From assembly GCF_005473905.2 (NCBI RefSeq), contig NZ_CP061336.1, positions 1,472,501-1,536,500 of the forward strand: a stretch of DNA of 64,000 nucleotides, read 5' to 3'. The translations under genes and the position numbers were made by a program. The notes beneath the pieces were generated by a model, which did not search any database, was not told the origin of the DNA, and saw nothing but the letters and a program-made list of their open reading frames with translations. Positions 25,434 through 44,882 of the stretch are shown piece after piece. The first letter of the stretch is position 1. Each line of letters starts with the position of its first letter. Origin of the DNA: Ruminiclostridium herbifermentans. Lineage in GTDB: Bacteria > Bacillota > Clostridia > Acetivibrionales > DSM-1351.

Positions 25434-27260
25434 ATGTGCGGAATAGTTGGATATATAGGAAATAGAAAAGCAATACCTGTACTTTTAAGCGGACTATCAA
25501 AGCTGGAATATAGAGGCTATGATTCAGCAGGAGTAGCAATAAATGAAAATGGCAAGCTAAGAGTTGAAAAATGTAAGGGCAGATTAACATCGTTAGAGGA
25601 AAGATTAAAAACAGAAAATTTAGATGGTGGAATGGGAATCGGGCATACTAGATGGGCTACACATGGTGAACCTAATGATATTAACTCTCATCCTCATATA
25701 AGCCAATCAGGGGAGATAGCTGTTGTTCATAATGGAATAATTGAAAATTACATTCAATTAAAGGAATTTCTTGTGGAACGCGGGTATAATTTTAAGTCAG
25801 ATACAGATACAGAAGTGGTTGCACATTTGGTTGAGCATTACTACAAGGGTGACCTTTTAGATGCTGTAATGAAGGTAATTGATGAAATAGAAGGCTCCTA
25901 TGCGCTAGGCGTTTTGTCTAAGGATAACGAGGATATGTTTGTATGTGCAAGAAAGGACAGTCCGTTGGTTATAGGCTTAGGCGACGGTGAGAATTTTATT
26001 GCATCTGATATTCCTGCAATCCTTGAATATACTAGAAACATCTACATTCTAGAGGATAAAGAAGTAGCCGTAATGACTAAAGACAGCGTAAAGGTATTTA
26101 ATAGCCTTGGTGCTCCAGTTAAAAAAGAGGTGTTCAAAGTAAATTGGGATGTGGAAGCAGCTGAAAAGGGCGGCTATGAGCATTTCATGATGAAGGAAAT
26201 GTATGAAGAGCCAAAGGTTATAAGGGACACCTTTAGTCCTAGAATAATAAATGGAGAACTGAAGCTTGATAATATTAATATAACAAAAGAAGAAATTGAT
26301 AATTTGCAAAAAATATATATTGTGGCTTGCGGTACAGCTTATCATGCAGGTGTTGTAGGGAAATATATAATTGAAAAGCTTTGCAAGATTCCAGTTGAGG
26401 TTGATGTTGCATCAGAATTCAGATATCGTGATCCACTAATTACTGACAAGGATTTAACAATAATTATAAGTCAATCAGGTGAAACACTGGACACATTATT
26501 TGCGCTGAGAGAGGCAAAAAATAAAGGCTCAAGAATACTTTCAATAGTTAATGTTGTTGGAAGTTCAATTGCGCGTAGCTCTGATGATGTGCTTTATACT
26601 TGGGCAGGTCCTGAAATCGCTGTTGCCTCCACAAAGGCATATAACACCCAATTGACTGCTCTATACTTGGTAGCACTTGATTTTGCGCTAAAAAAAGGTA
26701 CTATTAGTAAGGAAGAGGCAGATAATATTTTGGCTTCACTGAAGGAAATTCCAGCAGGAATAGAAGAAATACTAAAAGACAAGGAAAACATTCAGAAATT
26801 TGCTCATAGACATTATAATGCAAAAAGTATCTTCTTTATTGGAAGAAGCCTTGATTACGCCCTTTCAATGGAAGGCTCACTTAAACTAAAGGAAATTTCC
26901 TACATTCACTCGGAGGCATATGCAGGCGGAGAACTTAAACACGGAACTATAGCACTTATTGAAAAGGGCACATTAGTAGTATGTCCAATGACTCAAGACT
27001 CTCTGTTTGACAAAATGGTCAGCAATATAAGAGAGGTTAAAGCAAGAGGCGCAGTAGTTCTAGCCATAACTCAGCAAAGGCACAAGGAAGAACTTGAAAA
27101 AACAGCCGACCTAGTACTAACAATACCAGATGTGGACTCACTGATAGCCCCAATCTCAGCAGTAACACCATTGCAGCTTTTCGCCTACTACATGGCACTA
27201 GAAAAAGGCTGCGATGTGGATAAACCAAGGAATTTGGCGAAGAGTGTAACGGTGGAGTAG
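25434..27260 (+). CDS. glmS: Glutamine-fructose-6-phosphate aminotransferase (isomerizing)
   Basis: Makes glucosamine-6-phosphate from fructose-6-phosphate and glutamine, the first step towards UDP-GlcNAc. It is 608 residues, normal length, from ATG 25434 with AAGGAG upstream. The N-terminal Ntn glutaminase domain starts MCGIVGYIG (Cys2 nucleophile after Met removal), with GHTRWATHGEP and NGIIEN. Two SIS sugar-isomerase domains follow (SQSGETLDT, STKAYNTQ, HSEAYAGGELKHGTIAL), and the C-terminus is DKPRNLAKSVTVE. Its 3' end is the attTn7 recognition region for TnsD-type proteins, and a Tn7-like element is inserted just past the stop. Regulation by the upstream ribozyme is likely but may be partly bypassed by a proximal promoter. 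Confidence 0.98.
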   Translation: MCGIVGYIGNRKAIPVLLSGLSKLEYRGYDSAGVAINENGKLRVEKCKGRLTSLEERLKTENLDGGMGIGHTRWATHGEPNDINSHPHISQSGEIAVVHNGIIENYIQLKEFLVERGYNFKSDTDTEVVAHLVEHYYKGDLLDAVMKVIDEIEGSYALGVLSKDNEDMFVCARKDSPLVIGLGDGENFIASDIPAILEYTRNIYILEDKEVAVMTKDSVKVFNSLGAPVKKEVFKVNWDVEAAEKGGYEHFMMKEMYEEPKVIRDTFSPRIINGELKLDNINITKEEIDNLQKIYIVACGTAYHAGVVGKYIIEKLCKIPVEVDVASEFRYRDPLITDKDLTIIISQSGETLDTLFALREAKNKGSRILSIVNVVGSSIARSSDDVLYTWAGPEIAVASTKAYNTQLTALYLVALDFALKKGTISKEEADNILASLKEIPAGIEEILKDKENIQKFAHRHYNAKSIFFIGRSLDYALSMEGSLKLKEISYIHSEAYAGGELKHGTIALIEKGTLVVCPMTQDSLFDKMVSNIREVKARGAVVLAITQQRHKEELEKTADLVLTIPDVDSLIAPISAVTPLQLFAYYMALEKGCDVDKPRNLAKSVTVE

Positions 27261-27285
27261 GGGGAGCCTAGGGAGATTGATACAT

Positions 27286-27315
27286 TGAGGAATCATAAAA
27301 AAGTTGTAGAATTTA
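27286..27315 (+). repeat. glmS-proximal (right) terminal inverted repeat
   Basis: Begins TGAGGAATCATAA and ends GTAGAATTTA. It is identical over 30 bases to the reverse complement of 38870-38899. The preceding five bases, TACAT, are the target duplication. Confidence 0.95.
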
Positions 27316-27355
27316 TAAAAAAGTAGTGAAATTTATAAAAAAGATATAGAATTTT
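27296..27355 (+). repeat. Three tandem 20-bp TnsB-binding-site candidates
   Basis: Units 27296-27315, 27316-27335 and 27336-27355 share TAAAAAAG, a variable TTGTAG-type centre and AATTTW. Tandem TnsB sites of about 20 bp inside each end are typical of Tn7 elements. Confidence 0.8.
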
Positions 27356-27408
27356 CTAAAATTGGAGACATAACGGATTTATTGATATTGTAAAGTAAGA
27401 TGACACGG

Positions 27409-27450
27409 TAAACCCCACTTTTGCTGAGTATTTAGCGGAGTGGGGTTTTA
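27409..27450 (+). terminator. Rho-independent terminator inside the transposon end
   Basis: TAAACCCCACT and AGTGGGGTTTTA form an 11-bp stem around a loop containing GCTGAGTATTTAGC, which can pair further. It would stop transcription entering from glmS and protect the element. Confidence 0.75.
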
Positions 27451-27902
27451 CAAATATTGTTACTGCCTTAATATATATTTTAATATTTGGAAAGTAACAA
27501 TAAATGGTCAAGATAAGAATGAACCGTTCTGTACAGATAAAAGGAGCATTTGGCTTTTAAAAAGCGAATATGGTTTCAATCGTTTCTAAATCAGAGGGAA
27601 AACAGTCTTAGAATTTCAATAAACAATCTATAATTAGTATGCTCAGAATCTACAAAACCGTTAAGATATTATGGAGCAATCAAAATTTAATTAAGAAATA
27701 AAAGTTAATAAAAAGAAAAGAGCATCTCTCGACTATTTTTTAAGTAGTTTTGAGACACTCCTGTTTAAAAGTCTCGTATATAATATGTCATTTAAATACG
27801 AGTTATATATGAATTTACTTTCTGTTAATAAACTATCTATGTATGATCAACTAGCAACCTTATCAATTTGGAAATATAAGCAGTTAAGTACTTTACTACG
27901 GT
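27451..27902. other. Non-coding stretch in the transposon
   Basis: No gene, repeat or clear regulatory signal is seen between the terminator and the stop codon of the minus-strand cargo gene. Confidence 0.55.
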
Positions 27903-28577
27903 TTATTGGTTCCTATATTGAGTTCCACCCATATTAAAATATTCTCCGTCTTCTGTTATTCCAGTAACAGTTGCTATAGCCACATCAATTACGCTACCAC
28001 CTGCGGAATAAATTTCACTAACTGACTTAAATTTCAGTAACCCACCAAGGAATCTTTTAGAATTTACTATTGGTCCACTAGAATTATTAATAAGTATAAC
28101 ATCTGCCTCTATATCTGAAACATTTAGTATACCCACATTTAATAATGTTAGTTTCCACACAGAAGAAGATACGAATGTACCTGTTAAAACTAGTACGCCT
28201 GCAGGTACACTTGCTGTAATAGCATTACTTTGAGTGGTTGTAGTGCTATCATTTTCTAGTTCACTCAGAGTGCTTGTAGTACTATTTTTTTCTGGAGCAC
28301 TTTTATTCTTATCGTTTTCTTGTAAATTACGTTTGGAAATTGGTAATATTGCAATTACATTATCCTCAGCTATACCGTATTTCTCAAGTATTGGCTTATA
28401 TTCCTCGAAATTATTAATGTCAAATTGTGGATACTGAGTAATATCAACATTAATTATCTCTACATCATTGCCTGTACTAATTGTAGTGTTATCATTAGCA
28501 AATGCAGGAATATTAGATGATATTAACAATGAAACAACAATAAAGATGCTAAACAATCTGGTAATTCTGTTTTTCAT
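27903..28577 (-). CDS. Secreted protein of unknown function (transposon cargo)
   Basis: 224 residues. The start ATG is complementary to 28575-28577, preceded on its strand by AAAAGGAAATTT; an upstream TTG start would add 28 residues with no ribosome site. A clear Sec signal peptide is present (MKNRITRLFSIFIVVSLLISS...IPAFA, cleavage after AFA). A Ser/Thr/Asn-rich linker follows, then a C-terminal hydrophobic beta-rich domain (AGVLVLTGTFVSSSVWKLTLLNVG) ending GGTQYRNQ. There is no cysteine, lipobox or sorting motif. The family is not recognised. It follows the 138-codon gene by 31 bp on the same strand, so the two are probably one operon. Confidence 0.75.
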   Translation of the reverse strand: MKNRITRLFSIFIVVSLLISSNIPAFANDNTTISTGNDVEIINVDITQYPQFDINNFEEYKPILEKYGIAEDNVIAILPISKRNLQENDKNKSAPEKNSTTSTLSELENDSTTTTQSNAITASVPAGVLVLTGTFVSSSVWKLTLLNVGILNVSDIEADVILINNSSGPIVNSKRFLGGLLKFKSVSEIYSAGGSVIDVAIATVTGITEDGEYFNMGGTQYRNQ

Positions 28578-28608
28578 AAATTTCCTTTTTCTTTTTAGTT
28601 TATAGGTT

Positions 28609-29025
28609 TTATACTGGCTTATCAGCCCAATCCAGGTCTGGCATAATATCCCATCTAGCATTGGCAGTACAGGTATATCCCATCAAAGTATATATGGCAT
28701 CAGGGTCTTTTTTTCGTATATATTGTACCAGTACTTTTGACATTGTTAGCTCACATAGTTCTTCGTCAGAGATAGAGGGATTCTGATTAATAGCTCTGTT
28801 GAATTCCAACTCAATAATAAAATAAAAGACAGAATCAACATAACCGTCACAGAAAAGATTGACTGCTGTTTGCAAGATTTTTTTGGAACTGCCGAACTTT
28901 GTTTTAAAGTTTTCTTCGGAAAAATGATTTCGTAAACAACCTTTATGGTGAATTGTTTTGTAAATTGAAACAACTGATGCAAATAAGTCCTTTTGTGAAT
29001 CGTCTTTAGGTATTACCTCATACAT
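28609..29025 (-). CDS. Unknown 138-residue cytoplasmic protein (transposon cargo)
   Basis: The start ATG is complementary to 29023-29025 and follows GGGAGG on the minus strand. The product is soluble and predicted helical. Motifs include SVVSIYKTIHHKGCLRNHFSEENF, a hydrophobic VDSVFYFIIELEFNRAI helix and a C-terminal acidic/aromatic DIMPDLDWADKPV. I do not recognise the family. It is first in a two-gene operon with the secreted protein gene and lies between the glmS-proximal end and tnsA, divergent from tnsA. In Tn7 this interval is normally almost empty. Confidence 0.7.
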   Translation of the reverse strand: MYEVIPKDDSQKDLFASVVSIYKTIHHKGCLRNHFSEENFKTKFGSSKKILQTAVNLFCDGYVDSVFYFIIELEFNRAINQNPSISDEELCELTMSKVLVQYIRKKDPDAIYTLMGYTCTANARWDIMPDLDWADKPV

Positions 29026-29347
29026 TTGATAGCCTCCCAATAAATTGATTTTTAATGGTACTTTAAATCGTTTTGTTGCTAACTGGATGGATTAAACAGT
29101 AAATAAAGTCATAAATAAGTGTAAACTATACAATTTTAATTTTCAATATATATTACAAAAAATATAAAAATTTTAAAAAATATATAAAATTTTACAAATG
29201 TTGCAGTGTGTTTTTTTACCTTACAATTAGTATGGCATCAATAATTCAATAGAAAAGTATTAAAATTTATGAAAAAGGGTTATAAAAAAGATGTATAGTT
29301 TTATACCGTATAATGGTATACTTACATTAAAAAGGAATGCAGTTTTT
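29026..29347. promoter_or_regulatory. Divergent promoter region of tnsA and cargo operon
   Basis: AT-rich, with poly-A tracts at 29157-29200. 29101-29130 reads AAATAAAGTC, ATAAATAAG, TGTAAACTATAC, reminiscent of the AATAAAGTC...AAACT TnsB sites of Tn7 and of the old ends at 38915 and 39539. Autoregulation by TnsB or a former end is possible. No gene is seen. Confidence 0.4.
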
Positions 29348-30184
29348 ATGAGTAAGTATAACCTTAATTGGGATGAAAATAAACTTAAAAAATATATTAG
29401 TGAGGGACGAGGTCAAGGTGTAGGTAAGGACTACAAGCCTTGGATTACTATACATGACTTCCCTTCTGATGGGTTTAGCTCAAGGCAGCCTGGTTGGAAA
29501 TCTAATCGGGTCTGCCATTTTTTGTCCAATAATGAGTTACGATACTTCTATTTGCTTGAGTGGGCTGATAATGTAACAGATATACGTGAGCAATATCCGA
29601 TGAAATTAGAGGATACTTTAAGAATTGCAGAGCAGCTTGGTATAAAGCATCCTATAAATACTAAGAATGATGTACCTTATGTAATGTCATCGGATTTTAT
29701 GATTACAATGAGCGTTAACGGCAAGGAGACTGATATTGTAAGGACAATCAAGCCTGCAGATAAGCTAGAAAAGAAAAATGTAATCGAGCATTTTGAAATT
29801 GAACGACGGTATTGGGCTGAAATGGGCATTGATTGGGGTATTGTGACGGATAAGGATATTCCGAGAACTTTTGTTTCCAATATTGAATGGGCATATTATT
29901 CATATCATCTTGATTCATATAATGAGTTGAGTATTCAGGAATTGCAGTATTATGGAGAAATACTTAAGGAAAGACTACAAGAGTATGAAGGCAGAATTGT
30001 ACATGTAGCCAGTGCTTTTGATAAGGAAATGAACCTAATTCCAGGTACTACACTTGATATACTGAAGCATCTGATTGCAAGGAAGGAAGTTATAATGGAT
30101 ATGCAATCGAAGCGCTGCATAGAAAATGTGACAGGAAGTATAAAAAAGATTAAAAAGAAAAACGATGGGATGGCTGCGATATGA
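29348..30184 (+). CDS. tnsA: TnsA transposon endonuclease
   Basis: Cuts the 5' ends of the transposon and acts with TnsB as the heteromeric Tn7 transposase. It is 278 residues from ATG 29348 (Tn7 TnsA 273), which begins MSKYNLNWDENKLKKYISEG and aligns with the usual N-terminus; an earlier in-frame ATG at 29291 is less likely. The restriction-endonuclease-fold catalytic residues are visible: Glu in LLEWADNVTDIREQYP, Asp in YVMSSDFMITM and Lys in VRTIKPADKLEKKN. The winged-helix C-terminal region contains HFEIERRYWAEMGIDWGIVTDK, a strong TnsA signature. It overlaps tnsB by four bases (ATGA). Confidence 0.95.
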   Translation: MSKYNLNWDENKLKKYISEGRGQGVGKDYKPWITIHDFPSDGFSSRQPGWKSNRVCHFLSNNELRYFYLLEWADNVTDIREQYPMKLEDTLRIAEQLGIKHPINTKNDVPYVMSSDFMITMSVNGKETDIVRTIKPADKLEKKNVIEHFEIERRYWAEMGIDWGIVTDKDIPRTFVSNIEWAYYSYHLDSYNELSIQELQYYGEILKERLQEYEGRIVHVASAFDKEMNLIPGTTLDILKHLIARKEVIMDMQSKRCIENVTGSIKKIKKKNDGMAAI

Positions 30185-31713
30185 AGGGATTACTATATGT
30201 TAACGAGCTTATTACATGGAATCCGGGTCAGGAGAATGAACATACAGACAGGATACTTTGGATAGAACCCGATGGATTTATTCTTTATACTATTGATGCT
30301 TTTTCAAAGCAAGGCTTACCTGCTTCAAAGAAAATAAGTGATGTATTAAGTGCAATTGAAGTTGGCGATGCTGTAAAACAGGAGGATGACTCCTTAATAA
30401 GGGTTATTGGTGAAGACAGCATAAAAGATGCTGATAGAATTAAAAGAGATAAGGCATGGTCTATTATAGCTGATATTGTAAGTTTTGAGAATGAACCTGA
30501 TATTTATGAGCGTGAAAAAAGAGGCCCATGGATTTCAAAAGCAGTCGAGATGCATGGTGTTACTTATACCACAGTATATAAATATCTCAGAAGGTTTTGG
30601 CAGAGAGGCAAAAATAAAAATGCACTCCTCCCCGATTACTATAATTCAGGAGGCAGAGGAAAAAGAAAGCTTCTTGGAGATAAAAAAATAGGACGGCCAA
30701 GAAAAAATATTGCTGTTAATGGACCAGGGATAAATGTCAATGAGTCAACAAAAAGGATATTCAGAATTGCAGTAAATAAATATTATGATACTCCCAAGGA
30801 AAACTTTTTAACGACTGCTTATGACCTTATGGTAAAGGAATTCTATAAAGAAGATTACAGATTTGAGGATGGTATACGAAAGCCAACTATTATACCAATT
30901 GGACAGATACCTACGATTACACAATTTAGGTATTGGTATGAGGTTGAGAGGGATATTAAGAAATCTCTTACAAAGAAAAAAGGCAGTAAGAAGTATGCTT
31001 TAAATCATAGAGCTGTTACTGGAAAATCGGATGCAGAAATTATTGGACCAGGATCAAAATATCAGATTGATGCTACAATTGCTGATGTTTATTTGGTTTC
31101 AAGGTTTAACAGAACATGGATTATCGGTAGACCTGTAATTTATGCTGTTATAGATTGCTTTTCAAGAATGGTAGCAGGAGTATATGTAGGACTTGAAGGA
31201 CCTTCATGGCTTGGAGCGATGATGGCACTCTCAAATGCCTTTACAGATAAGGTTAATTACTGCAAGGAATATGATATTAATATTTCACAGGAGGATTGGC
31301 CATGCCATCATATTCCGATTGCAATACTCGGTGACAGAGGAGAAATGGAGAGTAAATATGCTGATACATTAGTAAATGGTTTAGGCATCAGGATAGAAAA
31401 TACTCCTTCTTATAGAGCTGATTGGAAGGGTATTATTGAGCAATATTTTAATTTGCTTGACGGCAAGGTAAAGCCGCTTGTACCTGGACATATTGATATC
31501 TCGTTTCGGGAACGTGGTGGAACAGATTACAGGCTTGATGCAAAGCTTGATATATACCAGTTTACCCAAATAATAATTAATTGTGTACTGTATCATAATA
31601 ATCAACATTGGATGAAAAAATTCAGTATGAGTGAAATTATGGTTGAGGACGACATAGATCCTATTCCTAAAGAACTTTGGAATTGGGGGATAAGCAATAG
31701 ATCAGGTAAATAA
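30181..31713 (+). CDS. tnsB: TnsB transposase, N-terminal and catalytic part, ending at an in-frame TAA
   Basis: DDE recombinase that binds the transposon ends and performs 3'-end cleavage and strand transfer. This 510-residue part includes N-terminal helix-turn-helix DNA-binding regions and the rve/DDE core: Asp in YQIDATIADVY, Asp in AILGDRGEMES and Glu in DWKGIIEQYF. It stops at TAA 31711-31713 within WGISNRSGK, whereas the same frame continues for 220 more codons with clear TnsB C-terminal sequence. The full frame (30181-32373) has 731 codons, close to Tn7 TnsB (702). A single T-to-A change in a TTA leucine codon would explain the stop. The missing part carries the TnsC-contacting tail, so the fragment alone is probably inactive. 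Confidence 0.92.
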   Translation: MKGLLYVNELITWNPGQENEHTDRILWIEPDGFILYTIDAFSKQGLPASKKISDVLSAIEVGDAVKQEDDSLIRVIGEDSIKDADRIKRDKAWSIIADIVSFENEPDIYEREKRGPWISKAVEMHGVTYTTVYKYLRRFWQRGKNKNALLPDYYNSGGRGKRKLLGDKKIGRPRKNIAVNGPGINVNESTKRIFRIAVNKYYDTPKENFLTTAYDLMVKEFYKEDYRFEDGIRKPTIIPIGQIPTITQFRYWYEVERDIKKSLTKKKGSKKYALNHRAVTGKSDAEIIGPGSKYQIDATIADVYLVSRFNRTWIIGRPVIYAVIDCFSRMVAGVYVGLEGPSWLGAMMALSNAFTDKVNYCKEYDINISQEDWPCHHIPIAILGDRGEMESKYADTLVNGLGIRIENTPSYRADWKGIIEQYFNLLDGKVKPLVPGHIDISFRERGGTDYRLDAKLDIYQFTQIIINCVLYHNNQHWMKKFSMSEIMVEDDIDPIPKELWNWGISNRSGK

Positions 31714-32373
31714 AGGTCTTATCCTGAAGATATTGTGAAGCTTAACCTTATGCCAGCAGATTTGGCTACAGTTACAGAAAAGGGGTTAAAATTCAAGAAT
31801 CTGCTGTATAGCAGCCCAAAGCTAATTGCTGATAGATGGTTTGAAATAGCTCGCAATAAGCGAAGCTGGAAAGAAAATATAGCGTATGATCCCAGAAATA
31901 TGAATTTTGTCTATATCAAAACAGAAAATAATAAGAGCTTTATTAAGTGTGAAATGCTTGATAAAAGACTGTATAACAATAAAACACTAGATGAAATAGA
32001 AAATTTATATGCTTATCAAAAGCTTAAGCTAGACAGGAATCAGGAAAAGCTTCTACAGTCTAATGTTGACTTTTTTACTAAAATTGAAAGCATAGTACAG
32101 GCAGCGGATAAAATGACTGCTGAACAAAAAGATAGAACTGTAAGTAATACGGAAAGAACTAAGAATATTAGGGAAAAAAGAAAATCGGAGAAGTATATTG
32201 AAAAGGCAGAGAATGCATTTATTTTGGATGCAGAAAAGGAATCAGAAAAAGCTAATATTCCTAACAATGTTATACCTATAAGAGAAAATGAAACCGATAA
32301 ATACAAATATCCAAGCCATATTGAATATTTAAAGAAAAAGCAAAAGGAAAGAATGGATAAAAAAGATGAGTAA
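31714..32373 (+). pseudogene. tnsB: TnsB C-terminal part, in frame after the stop codon
   Basis: Directly after TAA 31711 the same frame reads RSYPEDIVKLNLMPADLATVTEKG, then YDPRNMNFVYI, conserved C-terminal beta-barrel and linker regions of TnsB, ending in a Lys/Glu-rich tail (YPSHIEYLKKKQKERMDKKDE). No further stops or shifts occur in 220 codons. The first alternative start, GTG 31735, has no ribosome site, so independent translation is doubtful. It overlaps tnsC by eight bases. Confidence 0.88.
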
Positions 32374-33580
32374 AAATCCAAACACAGGCGTGATTGTTGA
32401 AGCAAGATATTCAAAGCAGCAACTGAAGGAATACTCTGGTAACCCACTAATTGAGGCGTTACCACCAATTTGGAGCTTTGAACAGGTTGAAGAGCTGCTA
32501 CACTTTTATCCTGAGCATACCAATGAAGAACGAAATTATGAGCCGCATATAAGATTTCACTGTGTCCAACGCCTTTTCAGCTACTTTCAGCCTTGGAGTA
32601 CTCACTTTGATATTGAACAGAGAATTTCAAGGGTAATAAGACAAGGCTACATAACAAGAAATCCACTTAATCCAAATTATGCGGGAGATTTGCAAAGAAT
32701 ATATCAGATGATTAAGGATGGAAATTATGAATTTAAAAACTCAGAGCTTTCAAAGCCATCAGCATCAGGCTTCACAATAATAGGATTTTCAGGTATGGGT
32801 AAATCTACCGCAGTGGAAAGTATTCTGAATAGATATCCTCAAATTATTTTTCATGAAGAGTACAATAATTTTGATTTTGACCATAATCAGCTTGTATGGC
32901 TGAAGCTTGATTGTCCTCATGACGGTGGAGTAAAAGGACTGTGTGCCAACTTTTTCATGGAATTTGATAGGTTATTGGCAGACAAAACATACAGTAAATT
33001 TGCAGCCGGAAGAAATACTACAACTGCAACAATGATTCCTAGAATGGCACAAATTGCTAGAAGACATAGCTTGGGACTTCTCGTTATTGATGAAATACAG
33101 CATCTCAGTGTTGCTAAAAGCGGTGGTCAAGAAAAAATGCTTAATTTTTTTGTTAATTTAGTAAATACTATTGGGATACCAGTAATCCTTATTGGAACAA
33201 CTAAGGCAATGTCAATTTTGCAGGGCGAATTCAGACAGGCTAGACGTGGAAGTGGACATCAGGGTGATTTGATCTGGGAGAACATGGAACAGGATGATGA
33301 CTGGGATTTGCTTGTTGAAGGCATGTGGAGCTACCAGTGGATTCAGAATAAGTGTGAACTGACAAAAGAGATTAAGGATGTTATGTATGAGGAAAGTCAG
33401 GGGATTGTCGATATAGCTGTAAAACTATACGCAATGGTGCAAATGAGAGCAATAGCTACCGGCGAAGAAACAATTAACTCTGACTTAATCAAAAGAGTAG
33501 CTAAGGACAATCTTAAGTTGGTCAGACCAATGCTTGATGCATTAAAGTCTGGTAAAAAGCAAGAAATTAGCAAATATTAG
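32366..33580 (+). CDS. tnsC: TnsC AAA+ regulator, main part, ending at an in-frame TAG
   Basis: ATP-dependent matchmaker that links target recognition by TnsD to the TnsAB transposase. Its 404 residues include Walker A GFSGMGKST near residue 143, Walker B LLVIDEIQHL and sensor-1 IGTTKAM. The frame ends at TAG 33578-33580 after EISKY, but continues unbroken for 149 more codons (DIRPLDIEQF...). Homologues usually have a glutamate at this point (KYEDI), so GAG to TAG is the simplest explanation. The whole frame, 32366-34027, encodes 554 codons including the amber, matching Tn7 TnsC (555). The AAA+ core is complete; the severed tail is the region that contacts TnsA/B in Tn7. Confidence 0.92.
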   Translation: MSKNPNTGVIVEARYSKQQLKEYSGNPLIEALPPIWSFEQVEELLHFYPEHTNEERNYEPHIRFHCVQRLFSYFQPWSTHFDIEQRISRVIRQGYITRNPLNPNYAGDLQRIYQMIKDGNYEFKNSELSKPSASGFTIIGFSGMGKSTAVESILNRYPQIIFHEEYNNFDFDHNQLVWLKLDCPHDGGVKGLCANFFMEFDRLLADKTYSKFAAGRNTTTATMIPRMAQIARRHSLGLLVIDEIQHLSVAKSGGQEKMLNFFVNLVNTIGIPVILIGTTKAMSILQGEFRQARRGSGHQGDLIWENMEQDDDWDLLVEGMWSYQWIQNKCELTKEIKDVMYEESQGIVDIAVKLYAMVQMRAIATGEETINSDLIKRVAKDNLKLVRPMLDALKSGKKQEISKY

Positions 33581-34027
33581 GATATTCGACCTTTAGATAT
33601 AGAACAATTCTGCGATGAGCGATTGAAGGAACTAAACCTTAATAAGCTTATTAAGCAGAAGCAGAATAAAATATTGCAGTCTGAAAATGATAAGGATAAG
33701 GTATTTCAGGAGGTTGTATTAAGGCTTGTAGATTTAAATATTGATCATGTTAAGGCTAAAAATATGACAAGGAACATCTTAAAGTCCTTTCAGGGTACAG
33801 TAAATGTTGATAATGTTTTCAAGGAGGCAATGCTTCTTTTACTGGAGCAGCGTTCAATAAAAAGTGATGTCCCTAAAAAGAGGACAGCTAAGAGTACTAA
33901 AAAAGATAAAGACGATTTGAGGGTAATTATAGAAAAAGGCAGAGATGAAAGCAAATCTGCATATGAGGCCTTAAAGACCGAGGGGATTATAAAATGTCCA
34001 GTTGAGGAATTTAATTTAACAGGATGA
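33581..34027 (+). pseudogene. tnsC: TnsC C-terminal part, in frame after the stop codon
   Basis: 148 codons in the tnsC frame after TAG 33578: DIRPLDIEQFCDER, then a helical, lysine-rich tail (LNLNKLIKQKQNKI...EEFNLTG). There is no further interruption and no ribosome site near the candidate TTG start at 33623. It ends six bases before tnsD. Confidence 0.85.
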
Positions 34028-34033
34028 TTATGA

Positions 34034-35935
34034 TTGAACTACTTCCCTACTTCGTATCCTGACGAACTGCTGTATAGTATATTAGCAAGGTACCATGTCA
34101 GAAACGGTAATATAAGTCCTAAAATGACTTTACATGAATTGTTCGGAACAAACACTATTACTGCAGTGGGTGATATGCCAAGTGATATTGATTCACTGGT
34201 ATGTCGGATTCCTAAGCACAAAAGGTTAACTGCTGATGGGCTAATCATGAATAATACACTTTTTCCGTACTATACTGCATTTATGCCTGAAGCCAGAACA
34301 AAGTTAATTGAAGCTGACATGAAAGGAAACGGCGGAGGCAAAATCCATACTATGGCTGGAATTATGGCAGGGTCTATTAATGTTCCAGAATATTTAAGGT
34401 TTTGCCCTGAATGTAATAAGGATGATGAACAGAAATACGGTGAAAACTACTGGCACAGGCTACATCAGATGCCTGGAGTGTTGTTTTGCCCTGTTCACAA
34501 TGAAATGATACTGGATAGCACAGTTAATCTGAAAATACAGAATAGACATGAATTTATTGCAGCTAATGAAAAAAATTGCTTAGAGAAGCACACAAAAATT
34601 AACTACACAGAAAAAGATATAAATAGTCTTATTACTCTCTCTGAGGATATAGATTGGATAATTAAAAATTATGAAAATGTAAAAGATTTTATGGAAAAAA
34701 CCTATGGAACTAGGAATTACTACATTGAAAAGCTTAAAGACAGAGGATATGCAACGGTAAATGGCCGAGTTTATCAAGAAAATTTAGTGGCAGATTTCAT
34801 TGAGTTTTACGGATTTGATTTTCTTAATTCGGTACAATGTCCTGTAGACTATAATAACCAAAATAACTGGCTTTCAAGTATTGTAAGAAAGCATAGAAAA
34901 GTTTTTCATATTGTGATGCATCTGCTGTTAATCAGATTTCTTTATGGCTCTGCTGAGAAATTTATTAATATTGGGGACAATTATAAGCCATTTGGAACAG
35001 GTCCATGGCCTTGCTTAAATCCAGTAGCTGACCATTACAAGAAGTTTGTAATAAAAAAGGCTAAGATTACTCATTGCTATGATACCAAGCACCCGGTAGG
35101 AACATTTGAATGCAGCTGTGGTTTTATTTATTCCCGGCGAGGACCAGATACTTCACCGGACGATTTATTTAAGGTTGGCAGGATAAAAATGTTTGGTTTA
35201 GTATGGGAAAAGAAGCTTGAAGAAGCTATTAATAAAAATTGGGGCTTAAGAAGGGTTGCCCGGGAGATGAAGGCTGATCCAAAGACAATAAAGCTATATT
35301 CAGCCAAGCTTGGTTTGAAAACAGGGTTTAATGATGAGAATATACATTCTGAAAAAGGTAGTCAAGCATCTATTGATAATGTACTTCAACAAAACGATAG
35401 CTTACTTTATAATCACAGGAATGCATGGTTATTAGCAAAAAAGACTTATCCTGATAAATCAAAAACAGAACTAAGAAGCATAGCAAAAGCACATTATGCA
35501 TGGCTTTACAGGCACGATAAAGATTGGTTAGATAAGAATTCGCCTGAGCATCAAAAGATACAAATAAATTCTACTAGGGTTGATTGGATTGCAAGGGATT
35601 TTGAGGTTTTACAAAAGGTTAAGGATGCTGAAAAGGAAATATTAAATACCAAGGGCAAACCAGAAAGAATATCTCTGAGCAGAATTGGCAGAGTTAGTGG
35701 GCTTCTTGGATTGCTTGAGAAGCACTTGGATAAGCTACCTCAGACTAAGGCATACATTGAGGCTGTTTCTGAAACTGATGATGCTTACAGAAAGCGAAGA
35801 ATACTCTGGGCTATACAAAAATTATCCGAGTCAGGAGAAGAACCGAAATTGTGGAAGGTTATGAGGATAGCTGGTATACGTAAAGAGTATGAAAAGCAGG
35901 CTGAAGAGTGCTTGGGTAAGAAAAAAGGTTATTGA
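34034..35935 (+). CDS. tnsD: TnsD/TniQ target-selection protein
   Basis: Binds the target and recruits TnsC; in Tn7, TnsD recognises the 3' end of glmS, and this element sits at that site. 633 residues from TTG 34034. The N-terminus MNYFPTSYPDELLYSILARYHVRNGN is the standard TniQ opening. The TniQ zinc finger is CPECNK...WHRLHQMPGVLFCPVH near residues 118-150. The C-terminal half has Tn7-TnsD-like helical DNA-binding repeats (RRVAREMKADPKTIKLYSAKLG). It is longer than Tn7 TnsD (508) but typical of TnsD in Firmicute elements, and uninterrupted. An out-of-frame ATG at 34030 gives only a 10-codon frame. Confidence 0.92.
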   Translation: MNYFPTSYPDELLYSILARYHVRNGNISPKMTLHELFGTNTITAVGDMPSDIDSLVCRIPKHKRLTADGLIMNNTLFPYYTAFMPEARTKLIEADMKGNGGGKIHTMAGIMAGSINVPEYLRFCPECNKDDEQKYGENYWHRLHQMPGVLFCPVHNEMILDSTVNLKIQNRHEFIAANEKNCLEKHTKINYTEKDINSLITLSEDIDWIIKNYENVKDFMEKTYGTRNYYIEKLKDRGYATVNGRVYQENLVADFIEFYGFDFLNSVQCPVDYNNQNNWLSSIVRKHRKVFHIVMHLLLIRFLYGSAEKFINIGDNYKPFGTGPWPCLNPVADHYKKFVIKKAKITHCYDTKHPVGTFECSCGFIYSRRGPDTSPDDLFKVGRIKMFGLVWEKKLEEAINKNWGLRRVAREMKADPKTIKLYSAKLGLKTGFNDENIHSEKGSQASIDNVLQQNDSLLYNHRNAWLLAKKTYPDKSKTELRSIAKAHYAWLYRHDKDWLDKNSPEHQKIQINSTRVDWIARDFEVLQKVKDAEKEILNTKGKPERISLSRIGRVSGLLGLLEKHLDKLPQTKAYIEAVSETDDAYRKRRILWAIQKLSESGEEPKLWKVMRIAGIRKEYEKQAEECLGKKKGY

Positions 35936-36027
35936 AATAATTTACTTCAAATATAAGAAGACGATATAAAATAAATTTTATTCCGAATAATTCAAATAAG
36001 GAAAAAATAAATTACAACATAGTAATC

Positions 36028-36060
36028 AGAGCTTTTGCTATATAATTTGCAAGCTCTTTT
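36028..36060 (+). terminator. Terminator of the tns operon
   Basis: AGAGCTTTTGC and GCAAGCTCT pair around an AT-rich loop and are followed by TTTTAT. It lies about 90 bp after the tnsD stop. Confidence 0.7.
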
Positions 36061-36234
36061 ATGTTCATTGTAATTCTTTATATTGTAGCAAAAACTATTT
36101 GGAAATATCAGTACTTTTGTTATATTATGGAATGTTTTAGTAAACTATGGTGGAATCATATAGAAGCTAGTTTGAGGCTATATTATAGTCTAATAGATTT
36201 ATTTTACTGATTTCTATCTAAGGAGAATATTTAA

Positions 36235-37458
36235 ATGAATTATGATTATTCTGGATATGATTTTTATAATAGCGTTGATAAAATATCTTTTATGAATGAA
36301 AATTCTACAGACTTTAGAGCAATATTTAAAGCTGTTTCGAGGTTTGAATACAATTATGGAAAAGACCTTAGTGATTTTTCAATAGAAGAAATTGGGGGAT
36401 TTATGAAAGCCTATGAGCCTTCAACTCCTGGTGCAGCAGCTACCGTTAGAAATTGTCTGAAAAATTACATTAATTACATTCATGCAAAGCAAGGAAAAAA
36501 TAAAGAAGAAAATCCATTAAACAAATTAAAAGAGATTTTTAATACTGAACGAAATTGGTCAGATCAATTTGTGGCTGAAAGCCAAATTCTTATTAGTCAT
36601 AATAAACTTATTGAGATTGAAAATAAATTAGAAAATAAACAAGATGCAATAATTTTCAGATTACTATTTGAAGGGATACAAATAGCTGAAATGGTGCATC
36701 TTACCAAAGAAAGTATATCTGGTAACACCATTAACATAGAAAATAATAGATTGGTTCAAGTTTCTGATCGATGCATAGAAATAATTAATGAAGCACTAAT
36801 TGAAGAAGAGTATAAACCACTAGAAAAAAGTTTGGGTTCATCAAAAGGTATCTGGGGCTATTTAAAAGAAAATAAGGAATATTTAATAAGGAAGACAGAT
36901 AGAGTATCTACTGAAAACGAGAGAACTTCTTATATGTTTATAAGATCTCGTATTACTGACTCTCTCATAAGACTAAAAATAAAAGGAATGACATCAAAAA
37001 ATATCATGCATTCAGGAATGATTTATAAGTCATTACCATTATTTAGAGATGTTAATAAACCTAGATTAACACAAAATGAGTACTCTGACCTTGCAAAAAA
37101 ATTCGGTTATTATACTATCGGAGCATTACCTTACATTGTAAATATTGAAAATGCAAAAAAGTTATATGGGAATGAACTGAATATTGATAGCAAGGAAATA
37201 TTAAGAAATAGTGTTAAAACAGGAAATGATGATACAGAGAAAGAAATGTTCCCTTGGTGGAAGTTTAAAGAGGAAAACGGTGAGTATGGAGAGCTAATTG
37301 TAAAAAATTATTTATTAAATAAATATGGTAAAAAGAATGTAAGGAAAATGGTTGACTCAGCTGGTTTTGACTTTGAAGTTAAAACAGAAAATATTAAAAA
37401 TTGTATTGAAGTTAAAACTATCGGTAAATACAGTATATATATATATTACTATAAATGA
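36235..37458 (+). CDS. MrpR-like (integrase-fold) domain fused to DUF3883; prematurely ended
   Basis: A transposon cargo gene, 407 residues as read. Residues about 20-300 resemble the phage MrpR-type repressor, a tyrosine-recombinase-fold protein lacking catalytic residues: FRAIFKAVSRFEYNYGKDLSDF, AATVRNCLKNYINYIHAK, AIIFRLLFEGIQIAEMVHL. Residues about 350-400 are the start of a DUF3883 domain, a PD-(D/E)XK-like fold: GEYGELIVKNYL, SAGFDFEVKT, CIEVKTIG. The frame leaves the conserved domain at a TA tract (37434-37446) and stops after YYYK. The next frame carries the missing remainder, so insertion of one TA unit would give a 488-residue protein. The start ATG 36235 follows AAGGAG. A defence role is inferred from the nuclease-like domain and context. 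Confidence 0.75.
   Translation: MNYDYSGYDFYNSVDKISFMNENSTDFRAIFKAVSRFEYNYGKDLSDFSIEEIGGFMKAYEPSTPGAAATVRNCLKNYINYIHAKQGKNKEENPLNKLKEIFNTERNWSDQFVAESQILISHNKLIEIENKLENKQDAIIFRLLFEGIQIAEMVHLTKESISGNTINIENNRLVQVSDRCIEIINEALIEEEYKPLEKSLGSSKGIWGYLKENKEYLIRKTDRVSTENERTSYMFIRSRITDSLIRLKIKGMTSKNIMHSGMIYKSLPLFRDVNKPRLTQNEYSDLAKKFGYYTIGALPYIVNIENAKKLYGNELNIDSKEILRNSVKTGNDDTEKEMFPWWKFKEENGEYGELIVKNYLLNKYGKKNVRKMVDSAGFDFEVKTENIKNCIEVKTIGKYSIYIYYYK
37434..37446 (+). repeat. TA dinucleotide tract at a frame break
   Basis: Six TA units plus T inside the DUF3883 coding region. Adding one unit restores the frame to ITINELLTALEN, the expected DUF3883 continuation. Confidence 0.8.
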
Positions 37459-37699
37459 GCTTTTGACTGCCCTAGAGAATCAAGATATTTACTATATGTA
37501 CATATTGAAACTTATTGATAAAAAAGAGTGCGTTACAGAGTGCTATGAGATAAATAACCCTATAGCTTTTTTTAATATAGACCATGAAATTTTAGGATAT
37601 AATTTTTGCAACAATAACTTTGATCTGCAAATGACTACTCAAGTTTTTACTATAAATATAAATCAAGAATTTTTAAATGATTTAAAGAGAGTTTTTTAA
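37447..37699 (+). pseudogene. DUF3883 C-terminal remainder in the shifted frame
   Basis: The frame beginning near 37433 reads YIYITINELLTALENQDIYYMYILKLI and runs to TAA 37697-37699 without interruption. The T-x-NE-x-x-x-A pattern is the conserved strand-helix element after IEVK in DUF3883 proteins. No ribosome site is available, so it depends on a frame change at the TA tract. Confidence 0.75.
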
Positions 37700-37940
37700 G
37701 TAAGCTTTGTTTTTATAATTCAAATTTTATCAAAAGGTAATGTGTTTTTATTATGCTATAAATTTGATGTGTTTTAGCCCGTTTTATATTATGAAAATGA
37801 TATAAATAAAATGTAGGCTAGTATAAAAATTAGGTGCAAAATGATAAGTATCGAATTACGAAAAAAATAATGCTAAAAATTATAAAAAATAATGTGCTAT
37901 AGGTTACAGGAGCTATCAAGTTAGGAGAAGAAATAACATA

Positions 37941-38210
37941 ATGAGCAGACTAAAGGTCAGATCATGGTCATTCGAAGAAGATGAAGAAGTTGAGTTGTAT
38001 TGGCATGGGATTCCATTTCAGAATTCAGAGGGTTTGTGGATGTTGAAATGTTTATTCAAAAGAAGTGATGGCAGCTTTAAGGAGCAGATAACTCCATTTG
38101 GTACACTTCCCTATCTTAGAATTGGTCAATCTTATATAAATGGTGACTTTTCAAATAGACCAGGAAAAGGTTCGTTATATGAAATTAAATTACCGAGGTT
38201 TGTGAAATAG
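37941..38210 (+). CDS. Small unknown protein (transposon cargo)
   Basis: 89 residues, family not recognised. ATG 37941 follows AGGAG (37923-37927) at a longish distance of 13 bases. The product is a compact, probably beta-rich soluble domain with aromatic residues: VRSWSFEEDEEVELYWHG, GLWMLKCLFKRSDGSFKEQ, LYEIKLPRFVK. No signal or membrane segment. It lies near the left end of the transposon with the next gene 58 bp downstream. Confidence 0.55.
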   Translation: MSRLKVRSWSFEEDEEVELYWHGIPFQNSEGLWMLKCLFKRSDGSFKEQITPFGTLPYLRIGQSYINGDFSNRPGKGSLYEIKLPRFVK

Positions 38211-38268
38211 ATTTCTAGCAAATAAAAAGGTTAATCTAAAACTTGGATTAAAAGAGCTTGATAATGGA

Positions 38269-38682
38269 ATGCTTACAATAATTAATCAAATAAATAATGA
38301 TAGGAATTGGGGATCACATATACCGGAATCTTTACTTGTAGCTCAAATGGAAATAGTCAAAAAAAAGATTGAAGAACACCCTGGTAGATATGCAGCAATT
38401 AATAATCCGATTCGCATTGTTGAGTTTGAATACTATGAAGGAGCGTGGTTAGTAGATCTATATAGAGAAGCAACTAATAATATAAAACGCTTTGAAAGAG
38501 TTTTACAACAGATGAAGAAAGACTATTCGATTTTAATTGGTAAAAGCATGCATATAGAAAAAGTATTAATAAATACTAGGCCCATAGGCGATTTAGATAT
38601 TCCCCAAATCTCAAATGAGATACAACAAAACAAATATACTGGTATTGAAGGTCGAGATATTTTTTGGGATGACAATTTGTGA
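38269..38682 (+). CDS. Small unknown protein (transposon cargo)
   Basis: 137 residues, family not recognised. ATG 38269 has only a weak AAGAG upstream. The frame is open back to 38206, so a short N-terminal extension or fusion with the previous gene after a small indel cannot be excluded. Predicted mostly helical, with NWGSHIPESLLVAQMEIVKKKIEEHPGR at the N-terminus and GIEGRDIFWDDN at the C-terminus. It ends about 190 bp from the transposon's left end. A conflict-system accessory role is only a guess from position. Confidence 0.5.
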   Translation: MLTIINQINNDRNWGSHIPESLLVAQMEIVKKKIEEHPGRYAAINNPIRIVEFEYYEGAWLVDLYREATNNIKRFERVLQQMKKDYSILIGKSMHIEKVLINTRPIGDLDIPQISNEIQQNKYTGIEGRDIFWDDNL

Positions 38683-38750
38683 AAGAGATTCTGTAAGGAC
38701 TAAGTATGATACTAAGTGTATCTCATAGGGAGGATTATTGTATTTTGTGT

Positions 38751-38889
38751 GATTTTACAACTTTTTTATTAATATTTAAATAAGTACTACTAAAAAGTGA
38801 AAATAACTTTATAACTTTATTTTTATGATTAACTTATTTGTTAATGATAATATGCGGATTCTATACTCGTAAATTCTACAACTTTTTTA
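38751..38889 (-). repeat. Left-end TnsB-site candidates of the transposon
   Basis: On the minus strand, AATAAAAAAGTTGTAAAATC (38751-38770), ATAAAAATAAAGTTATAAAG (near 38808-38827) and the terminal TAAAAAAGTTGTAGAATTTA (38870-38889) resemble the three units at the right end, in inverted orientation and more widely spaced, the asymmetric layout known for Tn7 ends. Confidence 0.65.
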
Positions 38890-38899
38890 TGATTCCTCA
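38870..38899 (-). repeat. Left terminal inverted repeat
   Basis: Perfect 30-bp inverted match to 27286-27315. It is followed at 38900-38904 by TACAT, the target duplication. Confidence 0.95.
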
Positions 38900-38903
38900 T
38901 ACA

Positions 38904-39187
38904 TGCGTCATAACAATAAAGTTGTGCACTGGATAATAAAGTTGTACACTGGATAATAAAGTTGCATACTATAAAATTTAAAAGAATGTTGTTATTTCAG
39001 GATTTTAAGTTATGTTACTTGCAATAATACATACTAATTTTTAAATCGCAATTAGCTAATATTATCAAATATTTATTCTGTAAAATTAGCTGGTGTACAA
39101 CTTTATTATTTTATTACATTTTACACAGATGGAATATCAATGGTTTGATTCTTATCCCAGTGTACAACTTTATTCTTTATTACGAAA
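38904..39187. mobile_element. Remnant of an older Tn7-like element
   Basis: Starting at TGCGTCATAAC, three AATAAAGTTG-type 20-bp sites lie at 38915-38932, 38935-38952 and 38955-38970. Two inverted sites (ending ACAACTTTATT) lie at 39092-39107 and 39157-39174. Opposed arrays around about 280 bp are what an internally deleted Tn7-like element would leave. The site sequence, AATAAAGTTGTGCACTGG, is close to the Tn7 consensus. The far terminus is degenerate and no duplication was found. The intact transposon inserted one base into the start of this remnant. Confidence 0.6.
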
Positions 39188-39321
39188 AGTAGAACTACCT
39201 TGATATATTTTAATGAAAGTGCTCTGGCGCACTTTCATATACACGAAGATTCAAATAAATATGATGCATTAATTTTTTTCATGTTATTATGAGGCAGGGC
39301 CAGCAGCTCTTTGAATGTGTA

Positions 39322-39464
39322 GTTTCTCATAAAGTTTGGTACTAGGGTTCATTACAAAAATTTATTAGTAGTGTCCTGTAATATAACTCTAGTGCATTAT
39401 ACAAGGATATAATCACTTTCCGTACCAAACTTTAGCGAGTCTAGTTCCAAACTATTCGAGAAAC
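39322..39464. repeat. Imperfect long inverted repeat
   Basis: GTTTCTC (39322-39328) and AAAGTTTGGTAC (39331-39342) match GTACCAAACTTT (39422-39433) and GAGAAAC (39458-39464) in inverted orientation. It could be a MITE-like insertion. A separate short hairpin, TGAAAGTGC/GCACTTTCA, lies at about 39214-39238. Confidence 0.45.
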
Positions 39465-39527
39465 CACAACAATTTTTGGGCTTCGTTAATCAAATAAATA
39501 TTGCGTTTCTAATAGTATACAATTAGA

Positions 39528-39594
39528 TGTCCCAGTTTAATAAAGTCGTATACTAGATAATAAAGTTGTGTACTGAATAAAAAAGATGTGTACC
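39528..39594 (+). repeat. End of a third Tn7-like element
   Basis: Begins TGTCCCAGTTT and carries three tandem sites: AATAAAGTCGTATACTAG (39539), AATAAAGTTGTGTACTG (39559) and AATAAAAAAGATGTGTACC (39577). The orientation places the element body to the right, where a tnsA relic follows. Confidence 0.7.
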
Positions 39595-39729
39595 AAATTC
39601 AAATTAAAATTAATTGGTATGCATTTTTTTTATGGTGTAATTTTATAAAACAGATTGGAGTATTTAAATATAGTTTGTATATAATCATCCTTTTTATGGT
39701 ATACATAGCGTATAGAGGATGATTTTTCT

Positions 39730-40225
39730 ATGGCTAAAAGAAAATGTGAGAGCAGACATGATTTTTATGTAATATGGATAGAAGAAGGCTATGCACAAGA
39801 TATAGGGAAATAATATATACCTTGTCTGACAAATCTATAATATTCCGTCAAAAGGAAGAGCTACGAGGCTATATGGAATAAAAATAGACAGGTAGCATGA
39901 TGTTTTTTAGGACAAGGAGAAAAAGTATCTATACATTCTTGAATTTGCTGATTGCGTTAAGGGTATTCGTGAACAATACCCTCTCTTTACTCTTAAGCAG
40001 ACAATGGTTATTTCAGATGAACTCGGAATTGAACATCCCAAAGATCCTGTTACTGGTGAAAACATAATAATGACTACGGATTTTCTTATTACGATTGAAA
40101 AAAATGATCAGCTTCTGCAATTAGCTCGTACTTTGAAGAATCCTAAAGAACTTGATAATTATAGACAGATTGAAAAATTTGAGATAGAAAGACGATACTG
40201 TATTTACTTTATTGATACCTTATAA
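39730..40225 (+). pseudogene. tnsA: tnsA relic
   Basis: The decayed start MAKRKC...EEGYAQDIGK hits a TAA where TnsA has GKDYKPW; further stops and shifts follow. From about 39920 one frame reads KYLYILEFADCVKGIREQYP, GIEHPKD, TTDFLITI and FEIERRY, all TnsA signatures including the catalytic Glu and Asp regions. Homology stops abruptly after ERRY near 40198, so the rest of the gene has been deleted. Confidence 0.85.
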
Positions 40226-42417: not shown

Positions 42418-43259
42418 TACTGCCTCTTAGACTTTTTGATTTTTGATTAAACTTATGCATAAGTAATATATGTAATTATATACCAAAAATTAACATAAAA
42501 CAATACAATTAACATAAATTCTGTTTTATGTTAATATAAGTTTTTTTTTATTAAGGCACACACAGAAGAGTTTTTTGTTATTCTATGATTTTTTTATTTG
42601 TTAAAAAGTAATTTTAAATAGATATTATATAATTTCTATAATTTTAAATAAAATTGCATTAAATGAAAATGAGATAATACTTACTAGTAGGCTATAAATT
42701 TTACATCTTTTTACTTATCAAAGCCATTTTCTATTTTGTTACTTTTACTTGATGATGTAAAATTAAAAGACAGATTGAATATTGGTAAGAATTTGTTTTT
42801 TTAAAAACAGAATGGAAATTTTAAATACAGTTTATCCATTTTGCATTACTATTTTTCAATTAATATATTTATTATTTTGTAATATGCTCAATAAATGAAA
42901 TATTCGCATGTAAGCTTATGATTTAAACAACTGCAGAAATTATTAAGGTTATAGACATTAACCTTAGGCTAAGTTGTTTTTATATTGTTTTATATTACAA
43001 TATGCTTTAGAATATGTTATTATGTGAAAAAATGGATTATAATGTAAATGCAGAGAGTGTGAAAAGTTTTGATAAAAAGTGATATTTCTTACAATTATAC
43101 TAAAGAAGTTGGTAATACACAGCTTAGTCAAGGATTTATACATAAAGGATTTTGCTGGATATGACTATCAAAAGTGAAAGGTCAAAACTAGAGCTAATTT
43201 CCCACTCGCAGTAATTTTGAATTTAAAGGGTGAAATTTGATTGAGGAGGATTGATTGCA
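42418..43259. other. Intergenic region with a 13-bp inverted repeat
   Basis: TTAACATAAAACA (42490-42502) and TGTTTTATGTTAA (42522-42534) are perfectly inverted around 19 bases; nine T at 42541-42549 follow. This could be an operator for the minus-strand genes or a terminator of lost plus-strand genes. The remainder is AT-rich without a gene. Confidence 0.55.
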
Positions 43260-44867: not shown

Positions 44868-44882
44868 TTAGGAGGTAATAAA

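Follow-up and report, generated by a model that had tools for sequence, protein, structure and literature searches.

A Tn7-like element with broken transposition genes lies before remnants of other Tn7-like elements behind glmS in Ruminiclostridium herbifermentans

What occupies the attTn7 attachment site behind glmS in Ruminiclostridium herbifermentans, in what order did its occupants arrive, and can the foremost of them still move? We addressed these questions in a stretch of 64,000 nucleotides (nt) of this genome (contig NZ_CP061336.1, positions 1,472,501 to 1,536,500; hereafter the window, with positions counted from its first letter), by comparison with 58 genomes of the same taxonomic order, including its own; genomes and loci of the comparison are cited by G and L numbers. 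Our analyses make it highly probable that a glmS-targeting Tn7-like element, here called E1, inserted before two older layers, E2 and E3, was then disabled, and now persists as a fixed cargo island.

E1 comprises 11,614 base pairs (bp), 27286-38899, and its first base is the 26th after the glmS stop codon (27258-27260). The initial annotation of this DNA had described a precisely bounded Tn7-like transposon here, and its outline was borne out. The terminal inverted repeats (27286-27315 and 38870-38899, with 11,554 nt between them) are complementary at 30 of 30 positions, TACAT stands on both sides, 20 nt separate the stop codon from the first copy, three right-end repeats follow one another at 20-nt spacing, and the right end points towards glmS as in Tn7. 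A perfect 30-bp pair around a cluster of tns genes is not a product of chance, and a search of the same genome with 27281-27380 matched the query's own stretch, the 30 bp of the opposite end and one weak 31-nt segment. The features that delimit the element are as follows.

25434-27260, plus strand: glmS, the attachment gene, whose 3' end is attTn7; open reading frame (ORF) of 608 amino acids (aa), the last 600 bp of which match in 11 of 11 genomes of the genus
27281-27285, plus strand: TACAT target-site duplication, glmS side
27286-27354, plus strand: right end of E1, with the 30-bp inverted repeat and three predicted TnsB-type sites at 20-nt spacing (27295, 27315, 27335)
38752-38899, minus strand: left end of E1, comprising the second 30-bp inverted repeat (38870-38899) and three sites, at 38752, at 38873 and, as a weak site with 3 mismatches, at 38806
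38900-38904, plus strand: second copy of TACAT, the final T of which (38904) doubles as the first base of E2

This arrangement is characteristic of Tn7-like elements. Putative TnsB sites are dense at the right end and spread at the left, where they lie 54 and 67 nt apart, and the insertion stands about 20-25 bp behind glmS in the fixed orientation and with a 5-bp duplication. Tn7 of Escherichia coli resembles E1 in its position at attTn7 behind glmS, its 5-bp duplication, its right end towards glmS, its closely spaced right-end and spread left-end sites, and its gene order tnsA-B-C-D(-E) with homologous TnsA, TnsB, TnsC and TnsD. Tn7 ends begin TGTGG, whereas those of E1 begin TGAGG. The three 20-nt-spaced repeats at the right end of E1 would, by analogy, be TnsB sites, corresponding to the four partly overlapping 22-bp sites given for Tn7 in passages of PMC11406308. 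A search for matching ends in relatives had also been proposed, and such ends do occur there: those of the type AATCATAAAAAAGTT adjoin glmS in G002, G004, G006, G008 and G031 and form a second layer in G001. Nothing points to a CRISPR-associated transposon, there being no Pfam Cas family among the 12 larger ORFs of E1; no CRISPR array was seen in the repeat listing (20 of at least 60 direct families), although no dedicated CRISPR search was made.

Whether the element can still move depends on its transposition genes.

29348-30184, plus strand: tnsA, open frame; Pfam TnsA N and C domains (PF08721/PF08722), start set by comparison with L023
30181-32373, plus strand: tnsB, interrupted by an in-frame TAA at 31711-31713 (codon 511), shortly 5' of the Mu-transpos_C domain
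32366-34027, plus strand: tnsC, interrupted by an in-frame TAG at 33578-33580 (codon 405)
34034-35935, plus strand: tnsD, open frame; Pfam TnsD (PF15978, 1.3e-111) and TniQ (PF06527, 1.2e-26)
37938-38210, plus strand: tnsE remnant, N-terminal residues 19-108 of 559 (about 90 residues), 83% identical to TnsE of G008

The descent of these genes is clear. TnsA is homologous to the Tn7 endonuclease subunit (1F1Z/1T0F; expectation value, E, about 3e-45, precisely 2.9e-45), TnsB to Tn7 TnsB (7PIK; E 1.4e-97), TnsC to Tn7 TnsC (8GLU; E 1.7e-91) and TnsD, a target selector of the TnsD/TniQ kind, to Tn7 TnsD (8GLU; E 2.4e-31 over residues 1-301). The report of tnsABCD inside the element was therefore right as to homology, but it had overlooked the in-frame stops in tnsB and tnsC and the remnant of tnsE. 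E1 thus encodes neither an uninterrupted DDE transposase, which counts against it as an active element and not against its descent, nor, for all its clear homology, an uninterrupted AAA+ regulator; and of TnsE, the selector of a second pathway, there is a stub only. The transposition machinery of E1 is broken. Two ORFs that might have passed for novelties dissolve into these genes: the 134-aa ORF at 33623-34027, which could be taken for a new conserved transposition gene following tnsC, continues tnsC in frame as its C-terminal part, and an 89-aa ORF close to the left end, which could be taken for new cargo, encodes the N-terminus of TnsE.

In most relatives both tnsB and tnsC are uninterrupted. 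Three close full-length relatives have a sense codon at the position of the tnsB stop; a fourth comparison, with a Nostoc record, aligned only to residue 356. Of the 16 other TnsB copies in the order at E up to 1e-60, 14 lie in frames of 709 aa or longer (that of E1 has 519 aa), and the remaining two are partial (440 and 502 aa, in L073 and L075) and broken at points other than the stop of E1. Of 15 other loci inspected, 13 keep tnsC open over at least 538 aa, counted from where the match starts (in L052 to the end of its stretch); the two others, L073 with 367 aa and L074 with 457 aa, are broken or shorter. Matches to the tnsE stub occur in five of the 58 genomes, this one included, and in the other four (G001, G008, G031 and G054) the frames are open at 547-560 aa; TnsE of G008 carries the TnsE_C domain, and its full-length sequence matched none of the solved structures (E up to 1). 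Since TnsE is, according to passages of PMC11406308, almost universal in glmS-targeting elements, its truncation in E1 is a loss. A related element elsewhere in the cell is unlikely to supply help in trans, because the genome has no second TnsB match at E up to 0.001.

If the tnsB and tnsC stops were sequencing or assembly errors, E1 would be a working tnsABCD element. Both frames are indeed open downstream of the stops to their natural ends, without a clear excess of changes there, and the frame of the cargo gene at 36235 seems to be lost within a TA run (37434-37446), a typical site of error. We nevertheless consider this improbable: the genome is a single 4.8-Mb contig rated 100% complete, glmS and four neighbouring genes are intact, the frame is kept on either side of each stop, so that neither can be an insertion or deletion, and the truncation of tnsE is not a single-base error.

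A transposase acting in split or read-through form, its parts working together, would reconcile genuine stops with activity. Both stops fall near domain borders, that of tnsB shortly before Mu-transpos_C and that of tnsC after the AAA+ part; neither gene is frameshifted, possible GTG or TTG starts exist on both downstream parts, and the ratio of nonsynonymous to synonymous substitution (dN/dS) past the stops, against L023, is 0.17 in tnsB and 0.23 in tnsC. However, neither stop recurs at its position in any other copy examined (tnsB of L073 and L075 and tnsC of L073 are broken elsewhere), the two stop codons differ, and no good ribosome-binding site was seen by eye before GTG 31735 or TTG 33623. 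One comparison of amino-acid changes, described next, also hints at relaxation of tnsC after its stop. On balance a split transposase is very unlikely.

These changes also bear on the age of the stops. Across pieces of tnsA to tnsD, dN/dS between the window and L023 is 0.05-0.23, at a synonymous divergence (dS) of 0.8-2.0 that is near saturation. Changes confined to the window were set against those confined to L023. With L063 as outgroup these number 24:34 before and 16:17 after the tnsB stop, and 15:20 before and 11:12 after the tnsC stop; with L064 the corresponding figures are 26:26 and 19:17 for tnsB, and 13:22 and 18:10 for tnsC. There is no clear excess of changes past the stops, although the ratios lean that way in four of four comparisons, most of all in tnsC with L064 (significance was not computed), and the stops consequently look young relative to the split from L023. 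The perfect ends had been taken to imply a recent insertion; alone they are a weak date, since ends stay perfect for as long as an element is mobile.

The flank behind the second TACAT is older Tn7-like debris and not ordinary chromosome.

38904-39186, plus strand: E2, a gene-less remnant of an older Tn7-like element with another end type; right-end sites at 38913, 38933 and 38953
39092 and 39159, minus strand: left-end-type sites of E2, its far boundary being uncertain
39528-40225, plus strand: E3, traces of a third Tn7-like element: its right end (sites 39537, 39557 and 39577) and a tnsA fragment at 39833-40225

The right end of E2 starts with TGCGTCATAACAATAAAG at 38904. When E1 and one TACAT are removed in silico, this end (TGCGTCATAACAATAAAG...) comes to stand at +25 from the glmS stop, and the right ends adjoining glmS in G001, G002, G004, G031 and G054 start at +25 or +26 (the starts in G006, +19, and G007, +15, depend on where the ends were set, and that of G008 was not measurable). 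The tnsA fragment of E3 has a Pfam match at 1.4e-9 and 39.8% identity over 123 residues, and over 62 bp the E3 right end shares 95% identity with the one adjoining glmS in G001, a sister genome of the same genus. There, an E3-type element with tnsABCDE is flanked on both sides by a TGTAG duplication, directly behind the second copy of which stands an E1-type right end, so that the two types occur in the reverse of their order in the window. This opposite order indicates that the site is layered, with the newest layer adjoining glmS. G005 carries an E3-type end about 64.6 kb past glmS and, about 35-41 kb past it, a tnsABCD set. Between E2 and E3, the segment 39242-39315 has three relatives in G026 at 72-74% and one in G005 at 89%; it may be the remnant of an insertion sequence (IS) or mini-element, perhaps unrelated to E2.

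E1, E2 and E3 are neighbours within 27286-40225, as they would be had they moved as one composite element. This, too, is hardly credible, and of the explanations considered it has the least to commend it: a perfect duplication and perfect inverted ends bound E1 alone, the ends of E2 and E3 are of other types, and the E3 and E1 types stand in opposite order in G001. Neither a single-layer strain nor a relative carrying all three together elsewhere under one outer duplication was seen.

In the favoured account of E1 as the latest arrival, the ends, duplications, sites, homologies, stops, truncation, layer order and the mirror order of G001 are read from the DNA itself, while the course of events is modelled on Tn7, for which we drew on passages of PMC2918618 and PMC11406308 for TnsD-directed cut-and-paste transposition. 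TnsD would have recognised the end of glmS and TnsC would have bridged it to TnsA and TnsB bound at both ends; E1 would then have been pasted about 23 bp past the glmS stop with its right end towards glmS, duplicating TACAT. It would thereby have entered in front of the older E2, whose end sites differ, with the traces of E3 behind, so that the newest layer adjoins glmS; a difference in end type may be what opens an occupied site to a newcomer. E1 would, most likely after insertion, have been disabled by nonsense mutations in tnsB and tnsC, with loss of most of tnsE, and it most likely cannot move by itself and is now a fixed cargo island. Several points weigh against this account. The junction of an empty site had been proposed as a check, and none that refutes the boundaries was seen, but neither was a relative with precisely the expected earlier arrangement, in which the E2 end directly follows glmS, among the genus loci and the flanks inspected. 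The second duplication and the left boundary of E2 could not be fixed. Separate translation of the two open parts of tnsB and tnsC, or read-through of the stops, is conceivable, and the stops could be assembly errors; yet glmS is unbroken, as are four genes downstream that can be aligned with G009 almost from end to end.

A survey of the order places these layers in context. glmS was found in 45 of the 58 genomes (E up to 1e-60), and 43 flanks of 33 to 3,472 bp were surveyed, those of G029 and G045 being omitted as near contig ends. At least two sites at 20-nt spacing, starting within 60 nt of the glmS stop, occur in 23 of the 43, against a chance expectation of 0.0001 per genome (Markov resampling, 41 flanks of at least 100 bp). 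Five genomes have additional arrays farther from glmS than the first (five within 3 kb in G024, two each in G012 and G015, one each in G046 and G049), and G032 has a single array at 147 nt with none nearer glmS. On the minus strand of the same flanks, as a control, three arrays were found in about 62 kb (G011, G024 and G015), so that one of the single far arrays may be due to chance. The rule covers one broad site type and misses some ends, such as the second end of G002, which another rule revealed; the older layers of this genome (G000) and G001 lie past the 1.5 kb scanned in them.

Gene-less mini-elements contribute to these arrays. In G024 (L129), six right-end arrays by the survey rule mark Tn7-derived mini-elements 26-2200 nt behind glmS, within 3 kb; among them is a gene-less unit, with right- and left-type ends, in two copies that show 100% identity over 527 bp. 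This 528-bp unit has relatives, some of them right ends only, in 16 of the 58 genomes (E up to 1e-10), with copy numbers that are lower bounds, as only ten candidates were scored in most genomes. In G006 (L028) a mini-element of about 300 bp, 19-320 nt behind glmS, has right and left ends and, by eye, a GATGT duplication on both sides. In E. coli, Tn7 ends confer target immunity over up to 190 kb according to passages of PMC12452197, which speaks against insertion beside an end of the same type. The identical neighbouring units of G024 may have arisen by recombination and not by insertion; two E1-type ends 148 nt apart in G002 are left unexplained by immunity unless they differ enough.

Some right ends may also bring a terminator. 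We hand-picked 17 right ends from the genus and the order. In 11 of them a hairpin with a T-rich tail starts 65-102 nt inward of the tip, and no more than one of 60 shuffles equalled it: those of G004, G007, G031, G024, G012, G014, G046 and G019, the first end of G002 and both ends of G001. The hairpins of G024, G012, G014, G046 and G019 share one stem type and are not independent. That of the second G002 end was equalled by three of 60 shuffles, and in G008 and G054 a hairpin lies only about 240-250 nt inside (0/60 and 10/60). E1, G015 and G041 have none by the rule; a hairpin visible by eye in E1 near 27405-27452 lacks a U run. The long-loop hairpins, which fit a transposon-borne terminator for glmS, escaped a standard terminator scan limited to loops of at most 8. 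We suggest, as a tentative generalisation that is more doubtful than the history of E1, that attTn7 in this order may be a layered archive of repeated insertions of Tn7-like elements and gene-less mini-derivatives at almost the same positions behind glmS, in which older ones are pushed outward, right ends often bring terminators that keep glmS terminated whatever the number of layers, and differing end sites escape immunity, as the orders in G000 and G001 would record.

The closest relatives of E1 adjoin glmS in G008 (L023/L005), G031 (L063/L006) and G054 (L064/L007), with related right ends at or near the gene. Their TnsB proteins are full length and 67-78% identical to that of E1 and, unlike E1, TnsB and TnsC carry no stops. 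A full-length tnsE lies behind tnsD, directly in G008 and after one 151-aa ORF in G031, where E1 has only a stub; no tnsE was found near the tns set of G054, whose only match is on another contig. In all three, tnsA starts about 100-145 nt behind glmS with no cargo before it, again unlike E1. The last nine glmS residues of G008 do not align and the frame runs into the transposon end, which is either a genuine insertion inside glmS or an assembly fault in this metagenome-assembled genome. The E1-type element of G004 (L024) has a right end with one mismatch in 26; its tnsA is 94% identical to that of E1 over residues 20-129 but breaks off after residue 129. ORFs behind it resemble IS21 istA/istB (by eye only), and that genome yields a match neither to TnsD at 1e-20 nor to TnsB at 1e-60. 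Plasmid relatives of TnsB (457 records at 1e-30) are all less than 60% identical, and six TnsB peptide patterns found no relative among viral contigs.

Besides its tns genes, E1 carries the following cargo.

27903-29040, minus strand: glmS-proximal pair encoding proteins of 252 and 143 aa, within about 2 kb before tnsA
36235-37699, plus strand: gene with MrpR core-binding and catalytic-like domains (PF22822, 2.3e-12; PF22823, 7.6e-11), between tnsD and the tnsE stub
38269-38682, plus strand: 137-aa ORF without a family match

Cargo between the right end and tnsA, which Tn7 lacks along with the stops and the stub, had been reported at about 2 kb and consists of the two minus-strand ORFs; it is, however, no peculiarity of E1, as tnsA of G001 also lies about 2.7 kb inside its element. 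The 252-aa protein has, by eye, a signal-peptide-like start, and G004 has a related pair at 68-70% identity. None of the 252-, 143- and 137-aa proteins has a Pfam or PADLOC match, nor do the latter two match NCBIfam. We take the MrpR-type domains to be of the tyrosine-recombinase type; among the 58 genomes the gene matches in its own only (E up to 1e-8). TnsF of Tn6022, a target selector, is described in passages of PMC10293859 as XerH-like, with core-binding and partial catalytic domains.

E1 is ordinary in kind, a Tn7-like element in a serial-insertion island. Parks and Peters reportedly described in 2007 genomic islands arising from serial Tn7-like insertion, with several insertions or remnants at one attTn7; what differs here is that opposite layer orders can be read in two congeneric species. 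Among the titles and abstract openings listed for tandem or stacked insertions and for Tn7-like miniature inverted-repeat transposable elements, none concerned exactly this arrangement, which is no proof that none is published. The layers are readable, with two end types and a top layer that combines perfect ends with broken transposase genes, and the site thus lends itself to studying mutual exclusion of end types at attTn7 and the pace at which residents lose mobility. The gene-less mini-elements and the right-end hairpins suggest a simple means by which insertions could recur behind glmS without harm.

Further downstream, a three-gene ABC-3C or Lamassu-like defence cluster (CTD1, MComp1 and an SMC-like AAA protein, with PADLOC matches to LmuA and LmuB) occupies 43251-48054; lying about 3 kb past the tnsA fragment of E3, it may be cargo of an older Tn7-like layer. 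Two adjacent minus-strand genes at 52190-52990 and 53131-53904, encoding 266 and 257 aa, both match one gene of G009 and are apparently a tandem duplication.

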